Source of the DNA: Microcoleus sp. FACHB-831 | GTDB taxonomy: Bacteria > Cyanobacteriota > Cyanobacteriia > Cyanobacteriales > FACHB-T130 | NCBI RefSeq assembly: GCF_014695585.1 | Contig: NZ_JACJON010000034.1 | Location: 1-64,000 of the forward strand | DNA: 64,000 nt | Direction of reading: 5' to 3' | Shown: positions 31,317-36,031 of the stretch, piece by piece | How positions within the stretch are numbered: position 1 is the stretch's first letter | How the letters are laid out: each line of letters opens with the position of its first letter | Notes under the pieces: model-generated | Told to the model about the DNA's origin: nothing | Database searches by the model: none | The model's input: only the letters and a program-made list of their open reading frames with translations | Translations under genes and position numbers: made by a program

Positions 31317-31472
31317 TTCTGGGAAAACTGATTTTACAAGAGAACGTGATAGATGTCCTTCTTCCCGTAGAATGCGATCGCGGGGGTTAGTCGAAACTTG
31401 GTGGGAAGGCTCGACCATTACCCACAATTCTCGTGCAACCCCCCTATTCGCTGTATTGCTTGGAGAAAAGTC

Positions 31473-31988
31473 GTGGATTTATCACGCATTCCTGCTCAAC
31501 CTAAACCCGGCCTGATCAATGTTCTGATTGAGATTGCTGCCGGGAGCAAAAATAAATACGAATACGACAAGGAGTTGGAAGCCTTGGCTTTAGACCGGGT
31601 GCTTTCTTCGTCTGTGCAGTACCCCTATGACTACGGCTTTGTACCAAATACTCTAGCTGATGATGGCGATCCGTTAGACGGTATGGTAATAATGGATGAG
31701 CCAACGTTCCCAGGGTGTGTTATTGCAGCGCGTCCCATTGGGATGTTGGAAATGATCGACGGGGGCGATCGCGATGAGAAAATTCTCTGCGTCCCCGATA
31801 AAGATCCCCGCTATGCGAAGGTACGCTCCCTCCAAGATTTGGCACCCCATCGGCTAGACGAGATTGCAGAATTTTTCAAAACCTATAAGAATTTAGAAAA
31901 GAAGGTTACGGAAATTCTCGGTTGGAAAGATGTCGATCAGGTACTACCTCTGGTAGAAAAGTGCATCAAAGCCGCAAGCAAATCTTGA
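31473..31988 (+). CDS. ppa: Inorganic pyrophosphatase (family I)
   Basis: A 171-residue enzyme hydrolysing pyrophosphate to phosphate. GTG 31473 is chosen: it is preceded by TGGAGA at about 31461, gives the standard family start ([21 protein letters not shown]) and the usual length near 170, whereas the longer frame begins with unrelated residues. The metal-binding signature is [11 protein letters not shown], with the KYEYDKE substrate Lys/Glu block and [13 protein letters not shown] upstream and DKDPRY downstream. Cytoplasmic; drives biosynthetic reactions by removing pyrophosphate. Confidence 0.95.
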
Positions 31989-32017
31989 AAATAGCCGTAC
32001 AATCACTGTGGGGAGGA

Positions 32018-32038
32018 AGTAAAAAGTAAAAAGTAAAA
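32018..32038. repeat. Heptamer tandem repeat AGTAAAA x3
   Basis: Three perfect heptamers in the gap between ppa and panD. The same gap (31989-32173) contains CTTTTGACTTTTGCCTT-like stretches, degenerate copies of the GGCAAAAG family. It is of the STRR type seen elsewhere in the window. Confidence 0.55.
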
Positions 32039-32173
32039 AGGTATGCATAAAGAAAAAAGGAAGAGGAAAATATTTTTTTCAACTGACTTGAAACTTTTGG
32101 CTTTTGCCTTTGAACTTGGAGCTTTTGACTTTTGCCTTGTGCCTTTTGTCTGTTGACCCCCTAGCATCTAGCC

Positions 32174-32563
32174 ATGCAGCGCACGCTCCTTTTGGCCAAA
32201 ATTCATAGTTGCACACTCACGGATGCCAATCTAAACTATGTGGGTAGTATCAGTATTGATAAAACCCTATTATCGGCAGCCGGGATATTACAATATGAGC
32301 AGGTGCAGGTTGTGAATGTTGCTAACGGGGAGCGATTCATCACGTATGCGATCGCTGCATCGGCTGGGTCGGGGGCAATTGAACTAAATGGTGCAGCAGC
32401 TCGTTTGGGTATGAAGGGCGATCGCTTGATTATTATGACTTACGGACAGGTTAGCCCCGAAGAACTAAAAACTTACCATCCGACGGTTGTCCTGGTAGAC
32501 GAACACAATCGTCTGGTGGAAGTCCGCCGCTATGACGATCTGCTGATTAAGCAGCTCACTTAA
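32174..32563 (+). CDS. panD: Aspartate 1-decarboxylase precursor
   Basis: A 129-residue pyruvoyl enzyme that makes beta-alanine for pantothenate and coenzyme A. The self-cleavage site is intact: Tyr22-Val-Gly24-Ser25, where Ser25 becomes the pyruvoyl group. The catalytic [21 protein letters not shown] and the C-terminal half ([25 protein letters not shown]) match the family along the full length. It is eight bases before the MBL-fold gene, suggesting co-transcription. Cytoplasmic. Confidence 0.95.
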
Positions 32564-32571
32564 TTTAAAAG

Positions 32572-33477
32572 ATGGCAGATTTCGATCCAGCGACACCAAA
32601 CCCCCAGGCACTGCCTGGTAGAACCGATAGGTCAACACCTCCTACCGCCGAATTTGTTGTACAGTTTTGGGGAGTCCGAGGCCGAACTTCCGCCCCTGGC
32701 AAAGACACCATTCGCTACGGCGGTAACACTTCCTGCGTGGAAATGCGCGTAGGTGGTAAACGCTTAATTTTTGATGGCGGCACAGGTTTGCGGGTGCTGG
32801 GTAACAAAATGCTGGCGCAGATGCCTGTAGAAGGCTATATCTTCTTTACCCACTCTCATTGGGAGCGCATTCAAGGGTTCCCGTTTTTTGTACCCGCTTT
32901 CATTCGCGGTAATTGCTTTCACATCTACGGCGCAAATGCGGGTAATGGAGAATCGATGCAGCAGTGTCTCTGCAACCAGATGATGCATCCGAATTTTCCC
33001 GTCCCGATTCAGGTGATGCAGTCCGATCTGAAGTTTTATCACCTCAACCCCGGAGACACGGTGACTCTTGATGATGTCACGATTACAACGGCATCTCTAA
33101 ATGACACAAATCAGGCGATAGGGTATCGCGTTACTTGGCACGGACATAGCGCCGTCTACGCGGTGGATGCGGAAGATTCCCCTGAAGATCTAAATCAAAA
33201 TCTTCTGCACTTGGCAAGCGATGCCGATTTGCTGATTTGCAATGCCACTCCCGGCGGACACTTGCATCCTTCATCCTTTACAATTACTCCTTCATCAGAG
33301 GCGCCCTGGCAGACTAGCGTCGCCCTTGCCAAGGCAGCGGGCGTCAAGCAGTTGGTGATGTTCCGTCACGAACCGGACTACGATGACGACTTTCTGGACA
33401 TGGTGCAAGAGGAAATCCACGCAGCATTCCCTAATGGGGTAGTAGCCGCTGAAGGGATGATTTTGTCGGTGTTTTAA
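32572..33477 (+). CDS. Metallo-beta-lactamase-fold protein with a degenerate metal site
   Basis: A 301-residue protein of the MBL fold subgroup that starts with a VQFWGVRGRTSAPG and YGGNTSCVE block. Where active members have His-x-His-Trp-Asp-His, this protein has HSHWER (residues 94-99): both first-site His remain, but Asp98 is Glu and His99 is Arg. The usual middle-His segment (NHPGGALGYR-like) reads NDTNQAIGYR, and the later metal Asp in the DAxY motif reads NATP. The terminal His is kept in FRHEPDYDDD. It may therefore be non-hydrolytic or use a different metal arrangement. It follows panD by 8 bases. Confidence 0.85.
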   Translation: MADFDPATPNPQALPGRTDRSTPPTAEFVVQFWGVRGRTSAPGKDTIRYGGNTSCVEMRVGGKRLIFDGGTGLRVLGNKMLAQMPVEGYIFFTHSHWERIQGFPFFVPAFIRGNCFHIYGANAGNGESMQQCLCNQMMHPNFPVPIQVMQSDLKFYHLNPGDTVTLDDVTITTASLNDTNQAIGYRVTWHGHSAVYAVDAEDSPEDLNQNLLHLASDADLLICNATPGGHLHPSSFTITPSSEAPWQTSVALAKAAGVKQLVMFRHEPDYDDDFLDMVQEEIHAAFPNGVVAAEGMILSVF

Positions 33478-33484
33478 TGTCTGA

Positions 33485-33519
33485 AGTCCGGAGTCCGGAG
33501 TCCGGAGTCCGGAGTCCGG
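33485..33519. repeat. Heptamer tandem repeat AGTCCGG x5
   Basis: Five perfect AGTCCGG heptamers directly after the MBL gene and before the convergent TrpD-like gene. Degenerate relatives occur at 15609-15645 and, in coding sequence, within the histidine kinase genes near 50993 and 54089. A typical short tandemly repeated repetitive (STRR) element of filamentous cyanobacteria. Confidence 0.7.
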
Positions 33520-33565: not shown

Positions 33566-34633
33566 TTATCTAGGAGCGAGTTGTAAGGCAGCTACGGCAG
33601 CGCTGAGTTCTTGTAATTTTTGGGCAGCAATACCGTTGGTAAATAAAGCTTCTGCCTTAGTTAGACCAGATTGTAAATCTGGGGTTGCGCCACAACGCCA
33701 TAGATAAAACCCAGCATTCCAGATGGCTGCGGGCATCAATTCGCAAGATTTTCCCGCGATCGCCGCCTGCATTTGCTCAATTAACTGGCTAGCAGATTCC
33801 AGGGGGACTTCTTTACCAGCCATGTCGTAATCGCGGGGATGTAACAGCAGGCGTTCTATGTCAGAACCGGGCGAACCAAAGCCTATAATCGCCGTGCGAT
33901 CGCGTGGCAAGTCGCAGCTTCCTTCTAATCCTTTCACCGTCGTGTAATTCCCTGGCGTTCCCCGCAAAGCAACAGCCTTTTGGAACATTTGTTCTGTAGG
34001 GGGATGAACAAAACCAGAGACGACATGGGCATTACCAGCGTAGGGACACCAAATTAACTCTAAGGTGGCTATGGGCGGTCGTTTGCCCAGTTGATCGCGG
34101 TATTCCACCATTTCGTATGCTAAGGGGAAATGTTGGGGCAAATAGACGCATCCCAGCTTAGTTTTCTCGAACACTTGCTGTGCTTGGGCGAGAGTTAGTT
34201 TAGAGAAGTCTACGCCCAAACCCTGCCAAATATCGACTAGGGGGATACCGTATTTGGTGGGCATTACACCGCCACCTGGTATCACCACTGGCTGCCCAAC
34301 TGCCGTCAGGATTAAAGCGGTTAGGGGAGTGACTGGTGCGGTGCGATCGCGCCCATCATAAGGGCTATTGAAAACCATCACTGGTGGCTCTTTGCTGCCA
34401 ATTTCTTGCAACTTTGGCCCTAGTTCATCATAAGCATCCAACATTCCCGCTAATTCTTCCCCTGTTGGCCGCTTAATCCGATGAGCAATCAAAAACGCCC
34501 CTATCTGTGCGGGGGTTGCTTCCTTCATCAGCATCATCCGCATAGCAGATGCCGATTCAGCGCGACTTAAATCCTCGCTGGTGTGGGGGCCGCTGCCTAC
34601 TTTTTTCAGTAATTCCCTGAAGACCGCGCTCAT
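33566..34633 (-). CDS. Anthranilate phosphoribosyltransferase-like protein (TrpD2 type)
   Basis: A 355-residue protein of the nucleoside phosphorylase/TrpD fold: an N-terminal helical domain (residues 1-70, with IGAFLIAHRIKRPTGEELAGM) and an alpha/beta domain. The diagnostic Gly-rich PRPP loop of true TrpD (GTGGD) is replaced by SPYDGRDRTAPVTP, and GGGVMPTKYG replaces the second ligand loop, so it is not the tryptophan-pathway enzyme but the TrpD2/YbiB-like group, some of which bind nucleic acid. It follows the LysR gene at 34750 on the same strand with 116 bases between, and in cyanobacteria such genes are found near nitrate-assimilation regulators. Confidence 0.8.
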   Translation of the reverse strand: MSAVFRELLKKVGSGPHTSEDLSRAESASAMRMMLMKEATPAQIGAFLIAHRIKRPTGEELAGMLDAYDELGPKLQEIGSKEPPVMVFNSPYDGRDRTAPVTPLTALILTAVGQPVVIPGGGVMPTKYGIPLVDIWQGLGVDFSKLTLAQAQQVFEKTKLGCVYLPQHFPLAYEMVEYRDQLGKRPPIATLELIWCPYAGNAHVVSGFVHPPTEQMFQKAVALRGTPGNYTTVKGLEGSCDLPRDRTAIIGFGSPGSDIERLLLHPRDYDMAGKEVPLESASQLIEQMQAAIAGKSCELMPAAIWNAGFYLWRCGATPDLQSGLTKAEALFTNGIAAQKLQELSAAVAALQLAPR

Positions 34634-34644
34634 CTAAAAAATAC

Positions 34645-34665
34645 TGGTAATTGGTAATTGGTAAT
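34645..34665. repeat. Heptamer tandem repeat TGGTAAT x3
   Basis: Three perfect heptamers in the spacer between the LysR gene and the TrpD2-like gene, followed by a CTTTTGCTTTTTTACTTTTT-type stretch. A further STRR, here inside a probable operon. Confidence 0.55.
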
Positions 34666-34749
34666 TGGGGGTAAGGAAAAAGCTAACACGGGTAATTATT
34701 TCTTTTGCTTTTTTACTTTTTACTTTTGCTTTCCCAGTCCCTTGATATA

Positions 34750-35748: not shown

Positions 35749-35843
35749 GGTGCTGTAAGCTAGATCACATTTTGTAATGCACTGACCATAACGGATTTAG
35801 AAATGTCTTTTGGTAGAGCTTGATACAGATATGGGGGGATAGG

Positions 35844-35920
35844 GTTTTGAGTTTTGAGTTTTGAGTTTTGAGTTTTGAGTTTTGAGTTTTGAGTTTTGAG
35901 TTTTGAGTTTTGAGTTTTGT
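35844..35920. repeat. Heptamer tandem repeat GTTTTGA x11
   Basis: Ten perfect GTTTTGA heptamers and an eleventh ending in T, followed after an interruption by more copies at 35940-35955 and 35981-35993. Translation of the minus strand gives a meaningless KLKTQNS repeat. It separates the LysR and HEAT-repeat genes. Single copies of GAGTTTTGA occur near 26276, 29591 and 29633. Confidence 0.8.
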
Positions 35921-36031
35921 TAGCGTAGCCAAGTAGCACGTTTTGAGTTTTGAGTTGTAGAGACGCGATGCATCACGTCTGAGTTTTGAGTTTAATCTCC
36001 TACTCTCCCCTCCTCCCAAGACTCCGGACTT

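Follow-up and report, generated by a model that had tools for sequence, protein, structure and literature searches.

The window, a stretch of 64,000 nucleotides from the cyanobacterium Microcoleus sp. FACHB-831, carries downstream of panD a gene for an MBL-fold protein in which several of the residues expected to hold the metals are replaced. The question raised by this locus is whether such a gene is decaying, codes for an enzyme that works with a reduced metal site, or has been kept for a role that needs no catalysis.

The window gene is intact and codes for an MBL fold

As claimed in an earlier note on this DNA, which was made from the sequence alone, the gene is intact and follows panD closely: no stop is found inside the open reading frame, which codes for 301 aa, and its ATG lies 8 bases past the panD stop at 32563. 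The genes of the locus are the following.

31398..31988, + strand: ppa, inorganic pyrophosphatase (Pfam PF00719); the true start may be internal to the open reading frame
32174..32563, + strand: panD, aspartate decarboxylase (Pfam PF02261)
32572..33477, + strand: candidate MBL-fold pseudoenzyme, 301 aa, ppa-locus orthologue of clade X (open reading frame, Pfam, AlphaFold2 model, structure matches, tree)
33566..34633, - strand: glycosyltransferase family 3 protein, anthranilate phosphoribosyltransferase-like (PF02885; PF00591 below cut-off)

The last of these is the convergent neighbour in some relatives too. Five intergenic tandem arrays of heptamers (32017-32040, 32093-32157, 33485-33519, 34645-34668 and 35844-35919) were also seen near the locus, and one of them, with about 11 perfect copies, yields a spurious open reading frame (35765-36019) with LKTQNSK repeats.

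The protein was recognized by Pfam Lactamase_B_2 with 35 bits vs a gathering cut-off of 27, in agreement with the view that the elements of the fold are kept. The nearest NCBIfam models are those of RNase Z, and the best of them, TIGR02651, gave 47.2 bits against a cut-off of 292.95, so that the window protein is not a member of the RNase Z family; an intact orthologue reached 86 bits on the same model. The AlphaFold2 model (pLDDT 78.3, pTM 0.81, 47 sequences) has the MBL fold, and its closest solved structures are those of RNase Z, namely 2cbn with Z 25.6 and an rmsd of 2.7 over 235 residues, and 1y44 with Z 25.3. The top Foldseek match belongs to the RNase Z family as well, and complexes that contain INTS9 appear among the structure matches.

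The metal site and the catalytic loop are altered

The expected ligands, H94, H96, D98, H99, H178, D199 and one of 265/266, were derived from an alignment to RNase Z and to intact cyanobacterial copies. The corresponding features of the window protein are given below.

32851..32868, + strand: former HxHWDH motif, here HSHWER (H94, H96, E98, R99), read in the sequence
33103..33105, + strand: D178, replacing the middle metal-ligand His (alignment to intact copies and RNase Z)
33166..33168, + strand: D199, at the position of the bridging Asp in RNase Z (SGDT), retained here and in 6 of the 30 copies of clade X (alignment)
33241..33243, + strand: N224, replacing the conserved Asp of IYDA, which is kept in 19 of the 30 copies of clade X (alignment)
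33250..33309, + strand: former catalytic loop (in intact copies, TDEEY to GWGHST), which has been replaced, with H243 changed to E (alignment, model)
33364..33369, + strand: R265-H266, replacing the HH of HHDP (alignment)

The change of HxHWDH to HSHWER and the absence of the middle His had both been claimed before, and both were borne out. Residues 94/96/98/99 are H/H/D/H in all 60 intact orthologues and all 84 paralogues, and position 178 is His in the same 60 and 84 proteins, the 60 orthologues having been chosen for His at 99 and 178. The claim that a later Asp had become Asn was only half right: the Asn is real (N224, in IYDA), but residue 224 aligns with the Glu of the HEAT segment of RNase Z and not with the bridging Asp, whose equivalent, D199, is still present. 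The same holds for the last His, said to be kept, since the alignment to RNase Z places the ligand of HHDP at position 265, which is Arg in the window, whereas conservation places it at 266, where the His is kept. Gln was observed at the first His of HHDP (MYQHDP or MFQHDP) in eight otherwise intact copies of family f2 (L073, L080, L086, L088, L091, L098, L101 and L115), an observation that bears on which His of the pair is the metal ligand.

The loss of the GWGHST loop (H243 to E) had not been picked up in the earlier note. Together with N224 it is a change of the catalytic loop rather than of the metal ligands. Residues 227-241 of the loop have a pLDDT below 50 in the window model, and blocks 221-250 of an intact Lyngbya copy (L131), modelled from the same 47 sequences, have a mean pLDDT of 85-88; in the models, hence, the catalytic loop of the window protein seems to be without a fixed structure any longer. 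With E98, R99 and D178 in place, the protein does not have the site of a catalytic dinuclear MBL hydrolase; H94, H96, D199 and H266 remain.

Ligand loss is common to two groups of cyanobacterial copies

Homologues were collected from 40 and 388 genomes, including a class-wide search of the 388 with an RR protein (see below), and a further scan of named genomes was added, in which the best 80 of 569 were confirmed. This gave 254 loci in total; a single genome among the 40 and 388 searched has as many as three copies or more, and one 118-aa fragment (L040) was dropped. The copies with an altered site fall into two groups, X (30 copies, the window gene among them) and RR (31 copies), both drawn from similarity-ranked matches and not a random sample. 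In the 253-row alignment, 16 rows belong to no group: 15 are X or RR duplicates from a second collection, and the other is L097 (genome G357, gene 1479-2384, family f2), which has Tyr for His178 (LNYPNG), keeps HxHWDH and is otherwise intact; here, one residue has been lost separately from the changes in X and RR.

When seven ligands were counted (H94, H96, D98, H99, H178, D199 and H266), all 176 intact rows kept the seven, RR copies kept 4-5 (31/31) and X copies 0-5 (30/30), with three or fewer in 25 of the 30. As H99 and H178 served to select the intact set, the counts in these two columns are circular, and the other five ligands are independent; as all 176 rows keep these five, chance is not an issue.

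The X copies come from families f1 (that of the window), f4, f5, f7, f14 and f28. His178 is found in none of the 30 and Arg99 in 11, which include deep-branching copies of f1, f4, f5, f7 and f28; in the core Coleofasciculaceae copies, position 99 is Ser in 15 and Asn in 4. One check proposed earlier was whether HSHWER is fixed within cyanobacteria. It is not: among the 30 X copies the motif occurs in the window only, the others having DSQSDR, QTEIDR, QTEIAR, HCHWDR, HCHWDS, NCHWDS and so on, and the site is complete in most cyanobacterial relatives. The idea that HSHWER is fixed in cyanobacteria was thus rejected, and the loss of the DH pair is the only feature of the motif common to X. Even sister copies in the family of the window differ (D94, Q96, N178, G199). 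Some residues are newly common in X (S264 and Y266 in 23/27, D243 and L223 in 21/27), and the vacated ligand columns are more variable (mean entropy 1.59 bits vs a column median of 0.99), so that no single replacement site is common to the group.

The RR copies belong to other orders, and include those of Oculatella sp. LEGE 06141 and Phormidium tenue FACHB-886. Position 99 is Arg in all 31. Two positions that are His in intact copies are also mostly Arg: 178 (Arg in 26/31, G in 3, Q in 1 and P in 1) and 139 (29/31). H94, D199 and H265 are kept in 31/31, H266 in 29/31 and H96 in 28/31, and the GHST loop was found neither in the 23 RR rows aligned nor in those added later. About 60 positions of the fold and core are conserved to at least 95% in each of the three groups (X, RR and intact copies), and the segments of the pocket wall, FWGVRG, RYGGNT, IQGFPFF and PNFPVP, are conserved across these groups too.

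Order of the losses

Trees were built on subsets of 100, 74 and 82 rows, from which near-copies had been dropped. In the 100-row tree the 26 X rows form one clade with support 100/100. The first tree, without RR, placed X beside intact copies of family f2 (98/87), and a later one placed X+RR beside intact copies of other orders (99/92). The grouping of X with RR as a mere artefact of the common motif was considered. Trees without the active-site columns still recovered each clade: the earlier masked tree of 74 rows gave X 96/70, RR 99/98 and X+RR 88/49, and a larger one X 100/91, RR 100/98 and X+RR 94/72. Since X+RR persists in both masked trees, a single origin of the Arg99 step in X and RR is likely, although not certain; the support is moderate and leaves some room for a parallel H99R change. 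By Fitch parsimony on the masked tree, the X+RR ancestor had R99, had lost H178 and H243, and retained H94, H96, D98, D199, D224, H265 and H266, with the loss of D199 and of the HH pair placed later, inside X.

ppa, and not panD, is the constant neighbour

The position of the gene directly after panD might suggest a function linked to this decarboxylase, but as a general feature such a coupling did not hold. panD lies beside the MBL gene in 5 of the 30 X copies, all five in the family of the window (f1), and in 0/31 RR copies. Matches to panD at E 1e-3 are absent in 25 of 46 genomes, and a panD-type aspartate decarboxylase was not found at this threshold in any of the 14 RR genomes searched (e.g., G526, G561 and G410), so that beta-alanine must have another source there. 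The presence of panD is patchy in other cyanobacterial families also. ppa, on the other hand, is upstream of the MBL gene in 29/30 X loci and in 27/31 RR loci, the stretches examined for the four other RR loci possibly stopping short of it; the sole X copy without an upstream ppa, L241, also has the longest branch. Hence, a function tied to panD in general was discarded, and panD is not the functional key. The order ppa-panD-MBL is kept in intact orthologues of several other orders (L244, L245, L226, L230 and others), the MBL gene lying 14-70 bases downstream of panD; this gene order is thus old.

Selection, and alternative explanations

An assembly error or a pseudogene was ruled out by the many independent assemblies together with the open frames. 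A slower decay, in which a redundant third paralogue is losing its function and was sampled before frameshifts build up, was then weighed against estimates of dN/dS (Nei-Gojobori, on non-independent pairs and on open frames that took in some sequence upstream of the start). Within X, dN/dS was 0.085-0.283 with a median of 0.17 (the 97 pairs with dS 0.1-1.5, out of 325 among 26 X rows), against 0.084 for intact orthologues (269 pairs) and 0.129 for paralogues (35 pairs). The X proteins are therefore under purifying selection, with a constraint somewhat weaker than in intact copies, and the roughly twofold difference from the intact orthologues means that relaxed constraint accounts for part of the change. 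This difference, the variable residues at the vacated site and the two intact paralogues that remain in the genome of the window are what slow decay would predict; however, the frames are open in 30/30 X and 31/31 RR copies across several families and orders, no X pair exceeds 0.283, and the new residues of X are near-fixed. Slow decay is thus very improbable, and the earlier opinion that the gene is not simply decaying was upheld, given an altered site that extends over the clade with 30/30 open frames, the dN/dS median of 0.17 and the roughly 60 positions conserved at 95% or more.

Two further explanations were weighed, and we consider both unlikely, to about the same degree. In one of them, H94, H96 and D199, with the Asp or another residue at 178, would hold a single metal, and the protein would still be hydrolytic, as RNase J2 is reported to be with one Mn (PMC7864078). 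The window copy, which keeps H94, H96, D199 and H266 and has D178 and E98 besides, would allow for one metal, and RR is similarly well provided (H94 and D199 in 31/31, H96 in 28/31, H266 in 29/31). Against this, R99 and R178 introduce a positive charge at positions from which each metal would be missing one ligand, all have lost the GHST loop, D199 persists in only 6 of the 30 X copies and H178 in none, and the sister copies with D94, Q96, N178 and G199 belong to the very family of the window; most X members retain too few ligands for any canonical metal site. In the other, the protein would be a metal-free sensor or carrier, in which Arg99 and Arg178 of RR (Arg or polar residues in X) replace the charge of the metal and putatively hold the phosphate or carboxylate of a substrate that stays uncut. 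The occurrence of R99 in 31/31 RR and in 11/30 X copies, deep-branching ones included, of R178 in 26/31 and R139 in 29/31 RR copies, and the conserved pocket wall would fit such a role, but the core Coleofasciculaceae copies of X have not retained these replacements (S99 in 15, N99 in 4), and the intact family is likewise without a known ligand.

A proposed pseudoenzyme lineage at the ppa locus

The loss of ligands is common to the clade and the fold is kept under selection, as in a pseudoenzyme. We propose that the window gene is probably the ppa-locus member of a cyanobacterial lineage of MBL-fold pseudoenzymes, retained as a putative non-catalytic binding or partner protein. From the residues at the site, the catalysis that depends on two metals has very probably been lost in clade X as a whole. 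In the proposed course of events, the common ancestor of X and RR would have exchanged His99 for Arg and would already have been without the middle His178 and the GHST catalytic loop. Within X, the losses would then have extended to the bridging residue Asp199, to Asp224 and the HH pair, and even to HxH, so that the X proteins would have given up hydrolysis by the two-metal mechanism of MBL enzymes. A more detailed version, tentative at this stage, is that the two-metal site was initially overwritten by Arg (His99, His178 and His139, all three in clade RR), with a putative guanidinium charge in place of the metal, and was then nearly erased in X under selection, a stepwise passage from a metalloenzyme to a metal-free partner or ligand holder.

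As the likeliest retained role we hypothesize that of a partner or binding protein, in which the X proteins would act as non-catalytic subunits by means of the retained fold and pocket walls. They might hold the former substrate without cutting it. Alternatively, they might form pairs with an intact MBL paralogue present in their own cell, in the manner of INTS9 with INTS11 and of CPSF100 with CPSF73; this particular pairing, drawn by analogy, is conceivable but somewhat doubtful. An intact paralogue is available: at least one was found in each of the 10 X genomes in which the remaining copies were examined, and every X genome listed in the genome search has at least one further match. Those of the window genome (L021:3080-3931, - strand, and L022:3129-4217, + strand) have the full metal site, and adjoin open reading frames that we take, from their translations, to resemble aroC (chorismate synthase) and ribF (riboflavin kinase/FAD synthetase).

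To our knowledge, most known examples of inactive MBL-fold proteins are single subunits from eukaryotes, and no description of such cyanobacterial proteins was found in the open literature searched (titles and abstract openings). At one and the same locus, present-day cyanobacteria carry this gene in versions that are intact, half-dismantled or almost erased, and therefore the order of metal loss and its outcome are directly testable. The case is also a warning that automated annotation can mislabel entire families as 'MBL fold metallo-hydrolase'.

Comparison with known systems

RNase Z/ELAC offers the closest solved folds (2cbn, 1y44) and the best NCBIfam similarity (TIGR02651), but the window protein is below the cut-off of that model, and the ligands and the HST loop are missing. 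CPSF100 and INTS9 are described as inactive MBL proteins that partner active ones (PMC4819959); they resemble the window protein in that the MBL fold is kept, residues of HxHxDH are lost and an active paralogue is present in the same cell (PMC4819959). They differ in that the window model is one 301-aa domain without beta-CASP, whereas the known proteins are eukaryotic and have partners. RNase J2 is, like the window protein, a bacterial MBL paralogue whose site is unlike the two-metal one; it is reported to bind one Mn, to be active in cutting and to retain the three His of HxHxH together with another His and a Glu (PMC7864078), and the X copies have lost most of the ligands that RNase J2 keeps. 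The intact cyanobacterial orthologues and paralogues (e.g., Microcoleus vaginatus L145; L021 and L022 of the window genome) are 55-62% identical with the same order of elements, and the orthologues occupy the same ppa locus as the window gene; they differ from it in having all seven ligands and GHST.
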